Shown here: positions 11,759 through 55,994 of the stretch, piece after piece | How the letters are laid out: the number at the start of each line of letters is the position of its first letter | Position numbering within the stretch: the stretch's first letter is position 1 | From: Seleniivibrio woodruffii | GTDB taxonomy: Bacteria; Chrysiogenota; Deferribacteres; Deferribacterales; Geovibrionaceae | Direction of reading: 5' to 3' | NCBI RefSeq assembly: GCF_029267515.1 | Contig: NZ_JAJUIS010000004.1 | Span: 1-64,000, forward strand | Length of the DNA: 64,000 bases | Program-made: the position numbers and the translations under genes | The notes under the pieces: model-generated | Database searches by the model: none | Told to the model about the DNA's origin: nothing | What the model saw: the letters and a program-made list of their open reading frames with translations, nothing else

Positions 11759-14068
11759 ATGAGTCTCAAGGACATCGAGAAAGCGCTTTCTCGTGAGCCG
11801 CTGTTAAGCCAAAATGCCATCACAGTTCTGGAAAAACGTTACCTGAAAAGGGATAACAACGGAAAACCGGCTGAAAAACCAATAGACATGTTCAGAAGAG
11901 TCGCTCTCAATATTGCAGAAGCCGACAAACTCTATGACAAAAATGCAGACCTTCTTGCCTCCGCAAAAGAATTTTACGACCAGATGGTCACTCTTAAATT
12001 CCTGCCCAACTCCCCGACCCTTATGAACGCCGGACGCGAGCTTCAACAGCTTGCCGCCTGTTTCGTTCTGCCGGTGGAAGACTCTCTGGAAGGAATTTTC
12101 GAAGCCGTTAAAAATACAGCTCTCATCCATAAATCAGGCGGCGGAACCGGATTCTCCTTCTCGCGCCTTCGTCCGAAAGACGACGTTGTAAAAACCACAA
12201 GGGGAGTGTCCAGCGGTCCCGTATCCTTTATGACCGTTTTTGACGCGGCAACCGAAACAATCAAACAGGGCGGAACCCGCAGAGGCGCAAACATGGGCAT
12301 CCTGCGCGTAGACCACCCCGACGTTATGGACTTCATATACGCAAAAGAGGACAAGACAAAGCTCACAAACTTTAACCTGTCCGTGGGCATTACAGAAAAA
12401 TTCATGCAGGCTGTCATAAACGACACCGAGTATGACCTTATAAACCCCAAAACAAAAGCACTCGCAGGCAAACTAAAAGCCAAAGAGGTTTTTGATAAGA
12501 TGGTTCAGCTCGCATGGGAAGGCGGCGACCCCGGTATCGTTTATCTGGACAGGATAAACGCCGAGAACCCCACACCCAAAGAGGGCGAAATGGAGAGCAC
12601 AAACCCCTGCGGCGAACAGCCTCTTCTGCCCTATGAATCATGCAACCTTGGCTCCATAAACCTCGGCAAATTCGTTAAAGACGGAAAAATAGACTGGGAA
12701 GACCTTGAAAAGACAATCGCCGTTGCCGTGCATTTCCTCGACAACGTAATAGATATGAATAAATACCCCATCCCGGAAATCGACAGACAGACCAAACGCA
12801 ACCGCAAGATAGGTCTGGGTCTCATGGGCTGGGCGGACATGCTGGCGCTGATGTGCATACCTTATAACTCTGACGAGGCAACCAGACTTGCGGAAGAGGT
12901 TATGAAGTTCATTCGCGACACAGGACGTGTGAAATCTGCCGAACTCGCAGTTATCAGAGGCGATTTCCCCACCTTCAAAGACAGCATTTACCCTGACAAA
13001 GGTTTCAAAAATATGCGTAACGCAACTATAACTACAGTTGCACCCACAGGAACCATCTCCATCATCGCCGGATGCTCCAGCGGTATCGAACCTTTCTTCG
13101 CAATCGCCTTCTACAGACAGGTAATGGACAACAACAAACTTGTTGAGGTCAGCCCCGTATTCAAGGATGTAGCAAAAAAGGAGGGATTCCTTACAGACGA
13201 ACTTCTTGAGCAGGTTGCCGAAACCGGTTCTCTGCACGGTGTGGATTCAGTGCCTGATAAGTGGCAGGATGCGTTTGTTACAGCCCACGACATAACCCCT
13301 TTCTGGCACACGAAAATGCAGGCTGCATTCCAGAAATACACCGATAACGCCGTCAGCAAAACAGTCAACTTCCCCAATGAAGCAACTGTTGACGATGTAC
13401 GCAAAACGTATCTGCTCTCATACAACCTCGGATGTAAGGGAACAACAATATACAGAGACGGAAGCCGCACAGGTCAGGTTCTCAACGTCGGGACAAAAGA
13501 CAAAGAGGCAAAAGAGGAAACCGTTTCACAGGAACCCTGTGTGTTCGCACCAAAACCCAGACCTAAAGTTCTGGTCGGGCGAACTGTTGAAATGATGACA
13601 GGCTGCGGAAAGCTCTATGTCACCATCAATCAGGACGAAACAGGCAAACCTTTCGAAGTGTTCACCAGCATGGGCAAAGCGGGCGGATGCGCCCAGAGCC
13701 AGTGCGAGGCAATCGGTCGCCTTATCTCCATAAACCTCAGAAGCGGCGGCGAACTTGACCGCGTTATAAAACAGCTCAAAGGAATCAGCTGCCACATGAG
13801 ATACGGTTTCGGACCAAACACAGTACTCAGCTGTTCCGATGCAGTTGGAAAAGCTCTTGAGCAGGCGATACGTGACAATACAGAAATAAAAGTCAGCGGC
13901 AAACAGGACGACAGCATCACTGTTGACAAGCTCCTTGAAAAGGCAGAGAAGGCCGAACAGGACGGAATCAAAGTGAAAAACGGCGCTTGCCCCGACTGCG
14001 GCGGTCCCGTTGAGCATGTGGAAGGCTGCGATATCTGTTACTCTTGCGGATATTCCCACTGTTCGTAA
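11759..14068 (+). CDS. nrdJ: Adenosylcobalamin-dependent ribonucleotide reductase (class II)
   Basis: A 769-residue enzyme that makes deoxyribonucleotides with a radical generated from adenosylcobalamin, so it needs B12 but not oxygen. The ribonucleotide reductase barrel shows the active-site NPCGEQPLLPYESCNLGSIN segment and PTGTISIIAGCSSGIEP. After it come a TSCPD domain (about residues 600-690, TSMGKAGGCAQSQCEAIGRL) and a C-terminal four-cysteine zinc-ribbon-like tail (CPDCGG...CDICYSCGY). The leader has AGCCGGAGG seven bases before ATG. The same window carries the B12-independent nrdD/nrdG under a cobalamin riboswitch and part of the corrin pathway. Confidence 0.95.
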   Translation: MSLKDIEKALSREPLLSQNAITVLEKRYLKRDNNGKPAEKPIDMFRRVALNIAEADKLYDKNADLLASAKEFYDQMVTLKFLPNSPTLMNAGRELQQLAACFVLPVEDSLEGIFEAVKNTALIHKSGGGTGFSFSRLRPKDDVVKTTRGVSSGPVSFMTVFDAATETIKQGGTRRGANMGILRVDHPDVMDFIYAKEDKTKLTNFNLSVGITEKFMQAVINDTEYDLINPKTKALAGKLKAKEVFDKMVQLAWEGGDPGIVYLDRINAENPTPKEGEMESTNPCGEQPLLPYESCNLGSINLGKFVKDGKIDWEDLEKTIAVAVHFLDNVIDMNKYPIPEIDRQTKRNRKIGLGLMGWADMLALMCIPYNSDEATRLAEEVMKFIRDTGRVKSAELAVIRGDFPTFKDSIYPDKGFKNMRNATITTVAPTGTISIIAGCSSGIEPFFAIAFYRQVMDNNKLVEVSPVFKDVAKKEGFLTDELLEQVAETGSLHGVDSVPDKWQDAFVTAHDITPFWHTKMQAAFQKYTDNAVSKTVNFPNEATVDDVRKTYLLSYNLGCKGTTIYRDGSRTGQVLNVGTKDKEAKEETVSQEPCVFAPKPRPKVLVGRTVEMMTGCGKLYVTINQDETGKPFEVFTSMGKAGGCAQSQCEAIGRLISINLRSGGELDRVIKQLKGISCHMRYGFGPNTVLSCSDAVGKALEQAIRDNTEIKVSGKQDDSITVDKLLEKAEKAEQDGIKVKNGACPDCGGPVEHVEGCDICYSCGYSHCS

Positions 14069-45807: not shown

Positions 45808-45995
45808 AAAAAAGCCCCCGCTTATGCCGTAAGCATATTCCAATTGTAGCCCTGTAACATCAGGGCGGAGGAATCACGACGCATCAGGCTTCCTGCTGCA
45901 AGGCAGGCTTGCACACCGCAATCAGTATCATCCCCCTTTTCTGGAGTGTTGGCTCCAATTTTCATATGAAACACGAACACAGCAGGGGCATCTTT
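45808..45995 (-). ncRNA. ssrS: 6S RNA (SsrS)
   Basis: The minus-strand transcript of about 188 nt folds as expected for 6S RNA, which mimics an open promoter and binds the sigma-70 holoenzyme. The 5' GCCCCTGCT pairs with 3' AGCGGGGGC, closing the molecule, followed by six T residues. Between are segments matching conserved 6S positions: TGTTCGTG and TTTCATA near the 5' end, GAAGCCTGATGCGTCGTGAT on the 3' side, and CCCTGATGTTACAGGG. It lies downstream of zapA, its classical location. A -10-like TAGAAT occurs just upstream. Ends are approximate. Confidence 0.85.
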
Positions 45996-49498: not shown

Positions 49499-50176
49499 CT
49501 AACGAACCATAACATTCTCAACGTATTTTTCAATCAGCCTGACAGCGCCCGCCTTATCAAATATCTCCGGTTTATAAGACTTATCCAGCATCCTCATATC
49601 CCTGATCGTCTGGATGTACAGCGGCGCATCGCCGATATATTCTGCAACGGCAATGACATCCGCCTCGGCAGGCATCTTCCACATGGTATGACGCACCTCG
49701 AACGGAACACCGGAGATTTTAAGCGCTTCAATTGTCTTATAGAATGAGTCCTGTTTATGTGGCGTTCTCGCGATACTTTTAAGGTCTTCCGCCGAAAACG
49801 ATTTCAGATCGACAGCAACGTAGTCTGCCAGCCCAGCGTCAAGTATCTTCGCCAGTTTAACGGGCAGAAACCCGTTGGTATCCAGCTTGACCGCAAGACC
49901 TCTTGCCTTTAAATCCCCCAGAAACAGATTAAGGTTTTTGGAAAAAAGAGGCTCGCCGCCAGTTACGGCGACGGCCTCAATATCCTTACCATTCAGGTAG
50001 TTAAGGAATTCATCCAGCTTATTAGACCCTTTTCTGCCCACCGCGAGGGATGGATTGTGGCAATATCTGCACCGCAGGTTGCACCCGTGGGTGAACGCTA
50101 TGGAGGCTATCTTCCCCGGGTATTCCACAAGGCTCACATGCTGATAGTCCGCAAGAAAAAAATCGTATGCCATCAT
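49499..50176 (-). CDS. nrdG: Anaerobic ribonucleotide reductase activase NrdG
   Basis: A 225-residue radical-SAM enzyme with the CxxxCxxC cluster motif in CNLRCRYCH. It uses SAM to make the glycyl radical on NrdD; here the glycine lies on the separate 55-residue protein encoded immediately upstream. GGEPLF and the DTNGFLPVKL segment are typical of the activase group. The ATG at 50176 overlaps the stop of the upstream gene by one base (TAATG). Confidence 0.93.
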   Translation of the reverse strand: MMAYDFFLADYQHVSLVEYPGKIASIAFTHGCNLRCRYCHNPSLAVGRKGSNKLDEFLNYLNGKDIEAVAVTGGEPLFSKNLNLFLGDLKARGLAVKLDTNGFLPVKLAKILDAGLADYVAVDLKSFSAEDLKSIARTPHKQDSFYKTIEALKISGVPFEVRHTMWKMPAEADVIAVAEYIGDAPLYIQTIRDMRMLDKSYKPEIFDKAGAVRLIEKYVENVMVR

Positions 50177-50343
50177 TATTTAACCTGAAAGGTCTCTCTG
50201 TGTTCAAATTCCTCTTTTTTGCCCTCGTTCCACTGTTTAACGGGGCTGTGGTATCCCACAACGCGGCTGTATACGTCACAGGGCGTTCCCTTCACGTTGT
50301 CCAGCTCTGTTTCCAGCTTTTGCAGTTCTTCTTTCTTATCCAT
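50176..50343 (-). CDS. Stand-alone glycyl-radical domain of class III ribonucleotide reductase
   Basis: A 55-residue protein, too short for most gene callers. Residues 1-18 form a charged helix with leucines at 7, 10 and 14 (KKEELQKLETELDNV). Residues 22-55 match the C-terminal glycyl-radical segment that NrdD normally carries: CDVYSRVVGYHSPV, then QWNEGKKEEF; Gly30 in RVVGY is the expected radical site. The gene starts with ATG inside the end of nrdD (8-base overlap). AGGAGG lies seven bases before the ATG, inside nrdD codons, so this is an organised split rather than a sequencing frameshift. It presumably docks on NrdD and is activated by NrdG. Confidence 0.88.
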   Translation of the reverse strand: MDKKEELQKLETELDNVKGTPCDVYSRVVGYHSPVKQWNEGKKEEFEHRETFQVK

Positions 50344-52387
50344 TTGATACCTCCTGTTCTATCTCATTTTTAAGTCTTTCAATCTGAAGACTTAACTCGT
50401 GTTTTCTGTCCTCTTCGCACAGCGGACATTCCCTGTGTTCGCCCTTGATATATCCGTGGACGGGGCAGACAGAGAAGGTCGGTGTTATGGTTATATAGGG
50501 CATGGCATAGCTGCCCGTGATGTTTTCCAGCAGCTTAGACACGGTTTCGGGTCTGTCCACAGCTTCGCCGAGGAAGACGTGGAAAACCGTTCCGCCCGTA
50601 TAGAGAGGCTGAAGTTTATCCTGATGGGACAGCGCCTTGAAAAGGTCTCTGGTCTGTTCCACCGGAAGCTGTGTCGAGTTGGTGTAATAGGGTCGCTCCG
50701 CCGAACCGGATGTCACGATATCGCTGAAATCGGCGAAATCCTTTTTCGCAAGCCTGTACGAAGTGCCTTCGGCTGGTGTCGCCTCAAGGTTGTAAAGCAT
50801 GTCGTCCTCGTCCTGAAAATCTGCGAGTCTATCACGCATGAAGTTCAGCACCTTAACGGAGAACTCAAGCCCCTGCGGGTTCATGATGTCCACACCGAGG
50901 AAGTTCAGCAGACATTCGTTCATGCCTATTATGCCGATAGTGTTGAAATGGTTCTTCCAGTATTGACCGTTGCGCTCGTAAATATCCGACAGATAGTGCT
51001 TCGAATAGGGATAAAGCCCGTTTGCGGTCAGTTTTTCCAGTGATTTTCTCTTTATCTTCAAGCCCTCTCTGGCAAGCTCCATGAGGTTAGTCAGCTTATC
51101 GAAAAACTCCGCTTCATTACCCGCCGTATAGCCTATTCTGGGCAGATTTATGGTAACGACACCTATCGAGCCTGTCAGAGGATTAGCGCCGAACAGACCG
51201 CCGCCCCGTTTGCGAAGCTCTCTGTTGTCCAGCCTCAGGCGGCAGCACATACTCCTTGCGTCGTCGGGGCTCATGTCACTGTTTACGAAGTTCGCGAAAT
51301 ACGGAGTACCGTATTTTGCGGTTATTTTCATAAGGTCAGTGACTATGGGGTTATTCCAGTCGAAATTCTTATCGACGTTATAGGTGGGAATGGGAAAGGT
51401 GAACACCCTGCCCTTTGCGTCGCCCTCCTGCATAACCTCGATGAATGCGCGGTTGAACATGAACAGCTCTTCCTGAAACTCGCCGTAGGTACGCTCCTGC
51501 GGAACGCCGCCTATTATGACCGCCTCGTCACGAAAGGCTTTCGGAACGTATAAGTCCATGGTCAGGTTAGTGAAAGGGGTCTGGAAGCCCACACGGGTGG
51601 GTACGTTCAGGTTGAATATAAACTCCTGCATAGCCTGTTTCACCTCGGCGTATGTCAGGTCGTCATAAGCTATGAACGGCGCAAGGAGCGTATCGAAGTT
51701 TGAAAACGCCTGTGCCCCCGCCGCTTCACCCTGAAGGGTGTAGAAAAAGTTGACTATCTGCCCCATTGCGGAGCGGAGATGTTTGGGCGGTTTGCTCTCA
51801 ACTTTACCGTGTACGCCGCCGAAACCGCGCACCAGCAGGTCTTTCAGATCCCATCCGCAGCAGTACACAGCCAGAAGACCGAGATCGTGTATGTGATATT
51901 CGCCGTTGACGTGCGCCTGCTGTACGTTCTGGGGATATATCTTGTTCAGCCAGTATTTAGCTGTTATCTTTGAAGAAATGTAGTTGTTAAGTCCTTGCAG
52001 GGCATAGGTTGTGTTGCTGTTTTCATTGACGCGCCAGTCGCTTCCGCCCAGATACTCCTCAACGATGGACTCAAGTCCGCCGAACGCCTCTTTAAAATCG
52101 CGCATCTCGGCTCTCTGCTTCCTGTAAAGGATATAGGCTTTTGCGGTTTTCGCGTGTCCCTGCTCAATGAGCACCTTTTCAACTTCGTCCTGAATCTCTT
52201 CAACGGACACGGTGCCGTAATGACCGTATTTGTCGGTGATGTTCCGGCAGACCTTTATGGACAGCGCGGAAGAGGTATTTCTGTCCGTTCCGCCCACAGC
52301 CTTTGCCGCCTTATAGATAGCGTTTGCTATGCGCTCCGCGTCAAACGGAACGAAACGCCCGTCGCGCTTGCTCACCTTTTCTATCAT
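50336..52387 (-). CDS. nrdD: Anaerobic ribonucleoside-triphosphate reductase large chain lacking glycyl-radical domain
   Basis: A 683-residue class III reductase chain. An N-terminal ATP-cone (about residues 3-95, SKRDGRFVPFDAERIANAI) senses ATP/dATP. The barrel includes NGEYHIHDL, the YCCGWDL segment and MCCRLRLDNREL around the active site. The C-terminus has the metal motif CPVHGY...CPLC, then ends in a helix (LSLQIERLKNEIEQEV) instead of the RVxGY segment found in ordinary NrdD. That segment is encoded next door. Translation starts at ATG 52387 after AAGGAGG, which a riboswitch-linked hairpin can cover. It makes dNTPs without oxygen or B12. Confidence 0.93.
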   Translation of the reverse strand: MIEKVSKRDGRFVPFDAERIANAIYKAAKAVGGTDRNTSSALSIKVCRNITDKYGHYGTVSVEEIQDEVEKVLIEQGHAKTAKAYILYRKQRAEMRDFKEAFGGLESIVEEYLGGSDWRVNENSNTTYALQGLNNYISSKITAKYWLNKIYPQNVQQAHVNGEYHIHDLGLLAVYCCGWDLKDLLVRGFGGVHGKVESKPPKHLRSAMGQIVNFFYTLQGEAAGAQAFSNFDTLLAPFIAYDDLTYAEVKQAMQEFIFNLNVPTRVGFQTPFTNLTMDLYVPKAFRDEAVIIGGVPQERTYGEFQEELFMFNRAFIEVMQEGDAKGRVFTFPIPTYNVDKNFDWNNPIVTDLMKITAKYGTPYFANFVNSDMSPDDARSMCCRLRLDNRELRKRGGGLFGANPLTGSIGVVTINLPRIGYTAGNEAEFFDKLTNLMELAREGLKIKRKSLEKLTANGLYPYSKHYLSDIYERNGQYWKNHFNTIGIIGMNECLLNFLGVDIMNPQGLEFSVKVLNFMRDRLADFQDEDDMLYNLEATPAEGTSYRLAKKDFADFSDIVTSGSAERPYYTNSTQLPVEQTRDLFKALSHQDKLQPLYTGGTVFHVFLGEAVDRPETVSKLLENITGSYAMPYITITPTFSVCPVHGYIKGEHRECPLCEEDRKHELSLQIERLKNEIEQEVSNG

Positions 52388-52907: not shown

Positions 52908-52939
52908 TGTTTGCCAAACATGGCTTATGGCTATATTAA
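52908..52939 (+). promoter_or_regulatory. Promoter with palindromic operator for the SBP-GTPase-ABC cluster
   Basis: TTGCCA (52911-52916) and TATTAA (52934-52939) are 17 bases apart. The palindrome TGTTTGCCAAACA (52908-52920) covers the -35 element, suggesting repression by a dimeric regulator. About 75 bases of leader follow before the first gene, including a small CCGC-TTCC-GCGG hairpin near the ribosome-binding site. Confidence 0.5.
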
Positions 52940-53013
52940 TTAAAGTATCTTTTGTGGGGAAAGGATATAAGAAATCAAACGTGCCCGCTTCCGCGGACTT
53001 ACGGAGGAATATT

Positions 53014-54273
53014 ATGCCCCTTGTCACCCCGGCAATGACCCTTTCGGAGGTCATTTCAACTTATCCCGACACGCGTTCCATCTTTATATCAAACGGACTC
53101 TCCGTTGAGCAGAACAACCACGTCTTCATGACGGCGCTCACCGTTGAATCATTTATGAAGCTGCGCAGCATCAACCCCGAAATCTTTATGAAACTGCTGA
53201 ACGAGACTGCGGAAAGCTGTTCGCAGGTGAAAATCCTCTACACCGACGAAACCCCGGCGGTGCGCACGGATTTTCTCGGATACGTCGTGTGTCCCTTCAA
53301 ACACCTCTTTAAAGAGGCTTTCGAAAGCACACTCAACGACCACTATGAAAAAACCGGTGAAAAGCTCGTCAGCTTCGTGCCCATGGGCTGCGGCGGTCCC
53401 GACCCGTACGAATATATATGGGACACCGAAAACATTGACGAACTGCCCGACGCAATAGCCTCTCTGGGCTTCGGCGCATACTGGCGCAAACCCTTCCGTG
53501 AAAGGTTCCTCGACACCGGACTGTTCAAAGCGGTCGAAACAAAACCCTATATCGAAGAGTTCAAAGAGCTCAAAGACCCGCTGGGTCAGTACACAGTCTA
53601 TTCGTTCTCCGCATATGTCATGCTCATAGACCACAAAAAACTGGGCGACCTCCCCGTGCCTGAGCGATGGATTGACCTTGCTAACCCCATATACAAAGAC
53701 AACATCATCGTGAGCGGCAGCGAGGACGAGATTAACGAAGTGCTCCTCATGCACATCTATAAGGACGGCGGCGAGGAAGCCGTTAAAAGCATGGCGGGCA
53801 ACATAAAGGACACATGGCACGCGTCCCAGATGGCGAAAGCCGCGGGAAGCAGCATGAAGGATGGCGCGGCGGTTTACGTTCTGGCGTGGTTCTTCGCGGA
53901 CACATGCCCCAACACGGACAACATATCCATCGTATTCCCCGAAGAGGGCGCGCTGGTCAGCCCCATGTATCTCATGGTTAAGGCGGACAAAGAGGAGCGC
54001 ATGAAACCCGTTACGGATTTCATGACCGGAGCCGTCATGGGCGGGATATCGTCTTCCGCGAAGTTCCCCTCGACATGCCCGGACGTGCCGAACGTTCTGC
54101 CGGAAGGCACAAAACTTAAATGGTTCGGCTGGGATTTCGTCCGTGAACACGACATGAAGGTATTCTCCGATGAGCTGAACGCACGCTTCGCCAAATACCG
54201 CAAGGCGGCAGGCTCCATCAGCAGACACAGTTCGCACGGTAAAAAGAAATTTCAGGTACTGGTGAACAGATAA
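53014..54273 (+). CDS. Cytoplasmic substrate-binding-protein-like protein with ScdA/DUF1858-like N-terminus
   Basis: A 419-residue protein. Residues 1-70 (MTLSEVISTYPDTRSIFISNGL...) resemble the small DUF1858/ScdA_N helical domain. The rest has the fold signature of iron/polyamine ABC substrate-binding proteins (FVPMGCGG; WIDLANPIYKDNIIVSG; YLMVKADKE). There is no signal peptide or lipobox, so it should stay in the cytoplasm, which is unusual for this fold. The ATG at 53014 follows CGGAGGAATATT; a longer frame upstream runs over the promoter. It abuts the GTPase gene (no gap), pointing to a joint function. Ligand unknown. Confidence 0.75.
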   Translation: MPLVTPAMTLSEVISTYPDTRSIFISNGLSVEQNNHVFMTALTVESFMKLRSINPEIFMKLLNETAESCSQVKILYTDETPAVRTDFLGYVVCPFKHLFKEAFESTLNDHYEKTGEKLVSFVPMGCGGPDPYEYIWDTENIDELPDAIASLGFGAYWRKPFRERFLDTGLFKAVETKPYIEEFKELKDPLGQYTVYSFSAYVMLIDHKKLGDLPVPERWIDLANPIYKDNIIVSGSEDEINEVLLMHIYKDGGEEAVKSMAGNIKDTWHASQMAKAAGSSMKDGAAVYVLAWFFADTCPNTDNISIVFPEEGALVSPMYLMVKADKEERMKPVTDFMTGAVMGGISSSAKFPSTCPDVPNVLPEGTKLKWFGWDFVREHDMKVFSDELNARFAKYRKAAGSISRHSSHGKKKFQVLVNR

Positions 54274-54981
54274 ATGAAACTTGTAACAGTGGCGGGACCG
54301 CCCTCTGCGGGCAAGACCGCCGTAATAATAAAAACCGCTGTACATCTTAAAAAGATATATTCGAAAATAGGCGTCGTGAAATTCGACTGCCTCTCAACGT
54401 CCGACCACCTGCTCTACAAAAAGGCTGGCATATCCGTCGTGACAGGTCTGTCGGGCAACCTATGCCCCGACCACTACTTCGTCAGCAACATCGACGACTG
54501 CCTCCAGTGGGCGAAAAAGAAAGGATTCGACATGCTCATAAGCGAGAGCGCCGGACTCTGCAACAGGTGCAGCCCACACATAAAGGAGATACCCGCGGTA
54601 TGCGTTATCGACTGCCTCGCAGGAGCTGAAACCCCAAAAAAAATAGGACCCATGCTGCGCTATGCGGACACAGTCGCCGTTACAAAAGGCGATATAGTTT
54701 CTCAGGCGGAGCGGGAGGTCTTTTCGTTCCGTGTGCGTCAGGCAAACCCCAAGGCATCGGTAATCTTCGTGAACGGCATAACCGGACAGGGCGCATATGA
54801 CCTCTCACATGCTTTTTCCAAAGCCACCGATGTTGACAGTCTCGAAGGCGCTAAACTCCGCTTCTCCGTGCCCGCGGCAATCTGCCCCTACTGCGTGGGT
54901 GAAATGACCATAGGTACAGACCACCAGAAGGGCAACGTCAAAAAGATGGTATTCAAAGAAGTGGAAGAGGCGGCCGTATGA
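54274..54981 (+). CDS. HypB/UreG-like SIMIBI GTPase with Cys pairs
   Basis: A 235-residue P-loop protein. Walker A is GPPSAGKT (residues 8-15). SESAGLCNRCSPH aligns with the ESxGN region of HypB and UreG, but with a CxxC inserted. TKGD stands where these GTPases have NKxD for guanine recognition. Near the C-terminus ICPYCVGEM is a second CxxC. HypB and UreG deliver nickel to apo-enzymes, so a metal or cluster delivery role is a fair guess. The gene starts immediately after the substrate-binding-like gene stop and overlaps the ABC gene by four bases. Confidence 0.75.
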   Translation: MKLVTVAGPPSAGKTAVIIKTAVHLKKIYSKIGVVKFDCLSTSDHLLYKKAGISVVTGLSGNLCPDHYFVSNIDDCLQWAKKKGFDMLISESAGLCNRCSPHIKEIPAVCVIDCLAGAETPKKIGPMLRYADTVAVTKGDIVSQAEREVFSFRVRQANPKASVIFVNGITGQGAYDLSHAFSKATDVDSLEGAKLRFSVPAAICPYCVGEMTIGTDHQKGNVKKMVFKEVEEAAV

Positions 54982-55994
54982 CGGAACTTATGAACACCCC
55001 CGTAGCGGTGATTGCGGAAGAGCACCCCTACTGCATGGACTATTTCCGCTCTGTCGGTGTTTCCATTGCCGACACGGAACTGACACCGAGAGAGATAATA
55101 GACGCGCTGGACAACGAAGCCCTTGAAGATAAAGGATTTTCCAAAGAACAGATATCATCCCATTTCATAGAGTTTTTAAAACAGGCGGCGATGCTTAAAA
55201 GCACGGCTGAGCGCTCCGTGCACAGCGTCACCATAGTCGGCGGATTCGATAAATCCGGCACGCCCGAAAATTTCGAACTGATACTGAAACCGGGCGACAT
55301 AGTGTGCATCGTAGGCACCACAGGTTCAGGAAAGAGCCGTCTGCTGGCGGACATAGAATGTTTCGCCCAGAAGGACACCCCCACCGGACGCACTGTTATG
55401 GTTAACGGAAAGATACTGGACGGCGAGGACAGATTCCGGCTTGAGAACAAGCTGGTGGCGCAGCTCTCCCAAAATATGAACTTCGTCGTGGATATGAGCG
55501 TCGGCGAGTTCATCGCCATGCACGCAGCAAGCCGCATGATACCCGACATCGAGGCAACTGTTGAGGCTGTGATAACCTGCGCAAACGAGCTTGCAGGGGA
55601 AACCTTCACATACGAAACCGCACTTACACAGCTTTCCGGCGGTCAGTCCCGTGCCCTTATGATAGCGGACACAGCTATGCTCAGTTCCTCCCCCATAGTT
55701 CTCATCGACGAGATTGAGAACGCGGGAGTGGACAGGCGAAAAGCCCTTGAACTGCTTGTCAAAGAAGAAAAAATAGTTCTGATGTCCACCCACGACCCCA
55801 TTCTTGCATTGATGGGCAACAGAAGACTTGCCATCCATAACGGCGGCGTTAAAAAAGTGATAGAGACCGACAGGGAGGAACTTGCTGGGCTTGAGATTCT
55901 GCAATGCGTAGACGAAAAACTGATGCAGCTTCGCACGATGCTGCGTGCAGGAGAAAAAATTTCTCTGGATATGAAGAAATTTTTCGAACTATAG
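54978..55994 (+). CDS. Soluble ABC-type ATPase with N-terminal ScdA-like extension
   Basis: A 338-residue protein. Residues 1-75 form a helical extension (HPYCMDYFRSVGVSI) reminiscent of ScdA_N. Then comes an ABC ATPase domain with Walker A GTTGSGKS (113-120), signature LSGGQSRALMI, Walker B IVLIDEIENAG and the His switch in STHDP. No permease gene is near and no membrane helix is present, so it is not an ordinary importer ATPase. With the two upstream genes it forms a compact three-gene unit. Confidence 0.78.
   Translation: MTELMNTPVAVIAEEHPYCMDYFRSVGVSIADTELTPREIIDALDNEALEDKGFSKEQISSHFIEFLKQAAMLKSTAERSVHSVTIVGGFDKSGTPENFELILKPGDIVCIVGTTGSGKSRLLADIECFAQKDTPTGRTVMVNGKILDGEDRFRLENKLVAQLSQNMNFVVDMSVGEFIAMHAASRMIPDIEATVEAVITCANELAGETFTYETALTQLSGGQSRALMIADTAMLSSSPIVLIDEIENAGVDRRKALELLVKEEKIVLMSTHDPILALMGNRRLAIHNGGVKKVIETDREELAGLEILQCVDEKLMQLRTMLRAGEKISLDMKKFFEL

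Follow-up and report, generated by a model that had tools for sequence, protein, structure and literature searches.

A separate gene for the predicted glycyl-radical segment of a class III ribonucleotide reductase in Seleniivibrio woodruffii

Here we describe a 64,000-nucleotide (nt) stretch of the Seleniivibrio woodruffii genome (contig NZ_JAJUIS010000004.1; hereafter the window) in which a class III ribonucleotide reductase (RNR) is very probably encoded as two separate proteins, the catalytic chain NrdD and a small peptide bearing the glycyl-radical loop. The two genes are distinct in the DNA; the radical itself, the docking of both chains and the swapping of the segment are what we infer. 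The reading that best accounts for the sequences is that of an obligate two-chain enzyme in this organism, the radical segment acting elsewhere as a swappable cartridge, GrcA/YfiD-like but of NrdD descent.

On the minus strand, a cobalamin riboswitch is followed by nrdD, a gene for a peptide of 55 amino acids (aa) and nrdG (Table 1). A preliminary description of this DNA had stated that the nrdD open reading frame (ORF) stops after the CPVHGY...CPLC motif and a helix, and that the RVVGY segment forms a distinct ORF with its own ATG and an upstream AGGAGG, and both statements hold. The 683-aa NrdD ends in ...CPVHGYIKGEHRECPLCEEDRKHELSLQIERLKNEIEQEVSNG and lacks the radical loop, so the predicted radical glycine sits on the separate peptide and not on the catalytic chain. 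The two genes overlap by 8 bases, ATGGATAA (50336-50343), the AGGAGG is spaced six bases from the peptide's ATG, and nrdG, which comes next, shares one base with the peptide's stop codon. Furthermore, the Pfam NRDD profile is divided between the two products, abutting at position 532: positions 1-532 match NrdD and 532-562 match the peptide, both above the curated cut-off, as was also the case in a whole-genome search. The NrdD barrel matches PF13597 (609.7 bits) and PRK08270 (1032.5 bits, cut-off 548), and AGGAGGTATCAAATGGATAA occurs once in the window and, with up to two mismatches allowed, in none of 100 shuffles. A single NrdD barrel and a single radical segment emerged from profile searches of the whole genome, which found no second NrdD and no case of an extra copy beside a complete glycyl-radical enzyme; because of this one-to-one count, the peptide looks here like a needed subunit and not a spare.

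Table 1. Features of the nrdD locus and the second RNR gene in the window
Feature	Position	Strand	Remarks
Cobalamin riboswitch RF00174	52492-52680	(-)	directly upstream of nrdD; cmscan 89.9 bits, gathering score 31.5
nrdD, class III RNR catalytic chain, 683 aa: ATP-cone, barrel, zinc-type motif, no glycyl-radical loop	50336-52387	(-)	
ATP-cone, NrdD residues 4-93	52109-52378	(-)	PF03477 79.6 bits
Finger-loop MCCR motif, NrdD residues 380-383, candidate radical cysteines	51239-51250	(-)	poorly modelled region
Zinc-type motif CPVHGY...CPLC, NrdD residues 641-657	50417-50467	(-)	sequence
C-terminal helix of NrdD, residues 655-681, candidate docking helix	50345-50425	(-)	modelled, block pLDDT 84-90 to residue 680
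AGGAGG ribosome-binding site of the peptide gene, within the nrdD end	50350-50355	(-)	six bases ahead of ATG
Separate glycyl-radical peptide gene, 55 aa, 8-nt overlap with nrdD	50176-50343	(-)	
SRVVGY motif, peptide residues 26-31, predicted radical glycine 30	50251-50268	(-)	
nrdG, radical S-adenosylmethionine activase, NrdG2 type	49499-50176	(-)	TIGR02495 142.9 bits, cut-off 131.15
nrdJ, B12-dependent class II RNR, the cell's other RNR	11759-14068	(+)	NF006417 1203.3 bits, cut-off 961

The two frames lie one base apart at the junction, as they would if a normal nrdD had been cut by a recent frameshift mutation or by a mistake in sequencing or assembly, but the chance of this is virtually nil. 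A single-base error, which the preliminary description had named among the things that would refute its proposal, is excluded because all four other genomes of the same genus are split alike (L095, L096, L097, L100). The same holds across the phylum: in a sample of 50 Deferribacterota genomes, 28 gave an NRDD match and 25 a barrel match reaching the C-terminal part, the radical segment being separate in 24 of these 25 and fused in one (G001). This separation was checked in sequence for the barrel loci recognized by the motif pattern and rests on profile matches for L099 and L104 (G030, G031), which that pattern missed; in the remaining three genomes the match ends at a contig end (G016), is a segment alone (G048) or falls below the cut-off (G024). 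Moreover, the segment keeps its own start and is under purifying selection, with non-synonymous/synonymous (pN/pS) values against three relatives of 0.01/0.29, 0.04/0.65 and 0.14/0.59, in a comparison whose first codons overlap nrdD. A truly frame-broken fused NrdD, that of G928 (L269), looks different, since its break precedes the zinc motif, which remains in frame with the loop.

Further evidence comes from the best 80 of 454 related NrdD loci, taken from one-genome-per-species contigs and therefore not a random sample, of which 41 are fused, 35 split, two fused with an extra segment, one at a contig edge and one without a segment. The NrdDs closest to that of the window are from Deferribacterota (L007, 99% identical; L003, a Seleniivibrio, 96%), and the contig titles of the split relatives name many phyla. 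These 35 loci and 14 more from Deferribacterota, some of the same species, make up a set of 49 split loci, which bears on programmed +1 frameshifting at the overlap as a source of some fused NrdD. The 8-base overlap with AGGAGG just upstream is what such a mechanism could use, and RF2, where an internal Shine-Dalgarno sequence serves +1 shifting, offers a precedent. We nevertheless consider it highly improbable, as over the 49 loci the peptide occupies all three frames relative to nrdD (21, 15 and 13 loci) and its spacing varies from overlap (14) to a gap within 150 nt (26) or above 150 nt (9), while in Halanaerobiales (Halanaerobium, Orenia, Halothermothrix) an nrdG-like ORF, recognized by eye, separates nrdD from the peptide gene. 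In 40 of the 49, a Shine-Dalgarno-like string lies ahead of the peptide start chosen. Given the varying frames and the intervening gene, the split is not generally a frameshift, nor, given the split relatives, an assembly error. As a separate observation, the close relatives L085 and L086 have 519 nt versus 20 nt separating the two genes.

An intron or intein parting two exons that are joined later has been described for phage nrdD genes (available portions of PMC3653736 and PMC12363816), and some split relatives (L281, L282, L283, L286) have large inserts elsewhere in nrdD. There is almost no chance that it applies here, since the window genes overlap and leave no space for an insert at the junction; searches with intron families at gathering scores gave no match in the window or in 18 related loci. 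The inserts of those four split-type NrdDs appear as gaps of about 0.4-1.1 kb in the barrel match near residues 221, 269 or 381 and are perhaps inteins.

Whole-genome searches were extended to 30 genomes, selected on the basis of their loci: split in 25 cases, with an extra copy in 2, undecided in 2 and fused in 1. One barrel was found in each, and separate segments appear as matches of their own in 25, G064 having two; in G061 and G066 barrel and segment lie in one match read through stop codons, and G079 is fused. Altogether, 27 of the 30 show a barrel and a separate segment with no other source of the loop. Among 20 further regions, 18 have a barrel with an adjoining separate segment, L292 is a stand-alone segment, and L293 has a segment and nrdG with no barrel match. 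In larger groups, frequencies were obtained with a profile of separate peptides (E < 1e-14, open frames below 200 aa counted), a query that favours separate peptides. Short-frame segments made up 35/67 in the phylum of L081 (Moraniibacteriota/Patescibacteria; 286 genomes sampled), where frames of 231 and 355 aa were found for two others, 4/9 in that of L029 (Chloroflexota; 251 genomes) and 17/67 in that of L045 (Desulfuromonas; 247 genomes), the last count leaving out the frame-broken G928 and including G1033, separate by sequence. The sequence was examined for 27 of the 35 Patescibacteria-phylum segments and for all 17 of the Desulfuromonas phylum.

In a quick tree of 94 barrels, in which support is by the Shimodaira-Hasegawa-like approximate likelihood ratio test (SH-aLRT) only and L027 and L033 carry no split/fused label, the distribution of the two states requires 7 changes, 2 of them imposed by well-supported branches. 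A single split clade unites Deferribacterota and kin (24 rows, SH-aLRT 98). In turn, Moraniibacteriota and a Patescibacteria metagenome-assembled genome (MAG) form one clade (SH-aLRT 100) with two fused-plus-extra and two split members, which may represent an intermediate, the extra copy having come first and the built-in loop having been lost later.

From its sequence, NrdD keeps what a class III enzyme needs other than the glycine: ATP-cone, MCCR finger loop and zinc-type motif. MCCR, which resembles the SCCR motif described for Thermotoga maritima NrdD (PMC4493059, in part), is invariant in 37 aligned NrdDs, as are C641, H644 and C654 of the zinc-type motif, C657 being nearly so; the barrel as a whole has a mean column identity of 64%. 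On the other side, S26, R27, G30, P34, N39, K42, E45 and R49 are invariant in 38 aligned separate peptides. The NrdD model (predicted local distance difference test, pLDDT, 82.1; predicted template-modelling score, pTM, 0.75) matches class III RNR structures with E 4e-31 to 2e-20 and TM-scores of 0.57-0.66, residues 385-407 beside the finger loop being below pLDDT 50. A search of PDB sequences with the 55-aa peptide gave one chance match only (E 0.5).

The preliminary description had also pointed to heptad-like helices on both sides of the break, and these are present as sequence, the NrdD tail (655-681) being modelled as a helix for the window protein only. By eye, the Deferribacterota clade and L011, L012 and L058 have an NrdD tail resembling a charged helix and a peptide that starts with a matching one, a pattern found in 24 of the 49 split loci, all within that clade and its three kin, the set member L093 being missed. 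Halanaerobiales and others are split without such helices, and the helix-docking idea is thus not general. The radical domain has been described as mobile, with an ordered state confined to the active monomer (PMC11226230, in part), which makes a separable radical domain plausible.

Several observations weigh against an obligate two-chain enzyme. The helix pair is limited to one clade, so that it stands for co-occurrence and not for repeated co-evolution, and helix docking would be lineage-specific at most. By the pattern used, 9 of the 49 split loci have no Shine-Dalgarno string. Splitting is rare in some groups, as shown by the 3 short-frame segments among 48 strong matches in 149 genomes of the phylum of L031 (Halanaerobium). 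Genome-wide searches found no segment in G077 (L027, at a contig edge) or G078 (L033), each with a loop-less NrdD; the latter, a Nanohalarchaeota NrdD, is a case against unless the genome is incomplete, because its contig is not cut near nrdD. Finally, the same cell has NrdJ and could therefore survive the failure of NrdD as long as B12 is available.

Eleven genomes (G050, G051, G359, G696, G880, G912, G1017, G941, G524, G488, G462) combine a complete NrdD, matching the profile over 1-560 or 1-562 without an internal stop, with a stand-alone segment above cut-off. They give no frequency, because such cases were sought among the matches from the 30 whole genomes and the four phylum samples. The segment of G359 is of the zinc-ribbon type and adjoins nrdD. 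G462 has two segments, one of which is probably a prophage gene rather than the cell's spare, because it lies beside a phage-type DNA polymerase ORF (by eye) and is identical to the segment of the viral contig L275. G163 and G108 were rejected as spare-part cases, having two complete NrdDs each; in G163, a genome of the Patescibacteria sample, two complete NrdDs and one nrdG-like ORF stand in a row (L268).

These genomes could suggest that the peptide is a spare part only, and that the loop-less NrdD is decaying or otherwise powered. We hold this to be quite unlikely, since no other source of the loop was found in the window genome or in the 27 genomes mentioned above, and the barrel is as well conserved as stated. 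As for the earlier proposal that the radical subunit is possibly swappable, it is not shown for this organism, with its one barrel and one segment, but gains support elsewhere from the 11 genomes and from segment-only viral records. Similarly, the earlier comparison with GrcA/YfiD stands for anatomy but fails for descent: NRDD is the sole Pfam match of the peptide at E up to 1, and the window genome gave no match to the Gly_radical family PF01228, for which reason a GrcA identity of the pyruvate formate-lyase (PFL) type was rejected.

Viral contigs were scanned with an alignment of the peptides, and the best 80 of 554 relatives, which include several near-copies and were obtained with a query favouring separate peptides, comprise 67 short ORFs, 10 long NrdD frames, one locus cut at the contig start (L216), one without the motif and one mis-picked ORF (L246). 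Fifty viral records were searched whole, namely those of 49 of the 80 loci, whose contigs may be fragments, and ANMV-1, an archaeal virus whose genome is called complete and whose reductase-labelled gene has 144 aa. Stand-alone segments were the only NRDD matches in 48 of the 50; G395 has a barrel with a separate segment and G393 is fused. The 35.9-kb record G407 (that of L240) has two stand-alone radical segments and no barrel match. NrdG2 scored above cut-off in one of 49 viral records, G395, with weak sub-cut-off matches in G366, G370 and G394; this model is narrow, exceeding its cut-off in 2 of 14 control genomes, so that it may overlook other types of NrdG. In 7 of 8 sampled viral loci, the segment has neighbouring genes for terminase, portal, head, connector or tail proteins.

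The Deferribacterota-like helix occurs on five distinct viral peptides, one of which shares 90% identity with a Halanaerobium peptide across 40 residues, and a CHDC...KC..C zinc-ribbon form is common to viral contigs, ANMV-1 and Patescibacteria. A Deferribacterota MAG (G048, locus L273) carries a zinc-ribbon segment beside a terminase small subunit-like gene and near a GIY-YIG-like ORF (by eye), perhaps a provirus or a viral contig. Among nine peptides compared with PHROGs, three had no match and six weak ones (E 1.8e-6 to 0.0094), mostly to the end of NrdD families, one matching also phrog_4132, a 179-aa family of unknown function (E 0.0037); the viral copies are thus easily missed. For a viral zinc-ribbon peptide only a weak model was obtained (pLDDT 69.4, falling below 50 at residues 85-96, which hold the radical loop), and it gave no PDB match at E 0.001 or better. 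With single-sequence queries, which reach close kin only, a Bacillota-type peptide gave 3 viral loci and a Desulfobacterota-type peptide none. A search of phage records gave ANMV-1 and a few unannotated gut-phage contigs, and no Desulfobacterota-type peptide was found among them. In the available part of a preprint, nrdD of gut jumbo-phages is reported in pieces, with no evidence for splicing between fragments of 230 and 91 aa (PMC12363816), which may be an unrecognised case of the separate radical segment.

Taken by their sequences, these viruses would supply the radical loop to the host NrdD. We lean slightly towards a general view in which the NrdD radical segment is a mobile cartridge, for cells an obligate subunit or a spare, while viruses of anaerobes carry the segment only (about 40-150 aa) to load the host NrdD barrel by means of the host NrdG, keeping or taking over the supply of deoxyribonucleotides (dNTPs) at the cost of one tiny gene.

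The genomic context suggests a link of the operon with B12. The cobalamin riboswitch family is present at 14 of 18 related loci searched, and nrdJ is the sole PF02867 match in the window genome. By analogy, the riboswitch fits the use of NrdD when B12 is short, as proposed for Desulfuromonas nrdDG in a source that also describes B12 elements before B12-independent RNRs in genomes having NrdJ (PMC545781, in part). Beyond the riboswitch, three adjoining ORFs of 448, 235 and 338 aa (52927-55994, plus strand) resemble by eye a substrate-binding protein, a HypB-like GTPase and an ABC-type ATPase, and a 6S RNA (RF00013, 83.8 bits) lies at 45811-45991 on the minus strand.

In the two-chain enzyme proposed for S. 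woodruffii, coupled re-initiation at the AGGAGG-ATG would translate the peptide, which in this lineage the helix pair would dock to NrdD, the RVVGY loop entering the barrel. By analogy with class III biochemistry, NrdG would then generate the radical on glycine 30, from where it would move to an MCCR finger-loop cysteine for catalysis. The operon would constitute a B12-free alternative to NrdJ, switched by the riboswitch. Having the loop on a 6-kDa chain of its own would allow a damaged radical segment to be exchanged while NrdD itself is kept, and elsewhere the extra copies beside an intact NrdD and the stand-alone viral genes would serve as spare parts. If this is true, many anaerobes have a two-chain class III RNR in which one is free to add, remove or label the radical loop, and both loop entry into the barrel and activase access to the loop become directly testable. 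Moreover, the stand-alone copies would provide candidates for spare parts of a glycyl-radical enzyme beyond PFL, and the viral ones would give viruses of anaerobes a minimal means of influencing the DNA-precursor supply of their hosts.

The preliminary description knew of no experimental study of a split NrdD, and no description of a separately encoded NrdD radical segment was found in the open-access literature searched, most subscription papers lying outside it; the portions available of PMC4390871, PMC11528403, PMC9669993, PMC9531940, PMC8683613, PMC11226230, PMC4493059, PMC4372165, PMC12363816, PMC2795772, PMC545781, PMC3019208, PMC3653736 and PMC12288474 do not describe one. 

Among known systems, the closest is the class III NrdD of PRK08270, TIGR02487 and Pfam NRDD, which shares with the window system barrel, ATP-cone, finger loop, zinc-type motif, NrdG partner and radical-loop sequence; in those family profiles the loop is on the same chain, whereas here it is a separate protein. 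The nrdDG genes of Desulfovibrio vulgaris and Desulfuromonas are likewise preceded by a B12 riboswitch, and are treated as ordinary, with no split mentioned, in the portion of PMC545781 available. GrcA/YfiD and Y06I of phage T4 are also small proteins with a replaceable glycyl-radical segment, Y06I being viral, but they belong to PF01228 and to PFL, while the window peptide belongs to NRDD and to a class III RNR and is the only copy, not an extra one; according to the accessible part of PMC8683613, these two PFL proteins are the only validated spare parts, others being a possibility. Finally, catalytic parts of an RNR reside likewise on two chains in the split class II NrdJa/NrdJb (PMC9669993, in part) and in a phage NrdA broken by a homing endonuclease and yet working (PMC3653736, in part), though these are RNRs of other classes, without a glycyl radical.

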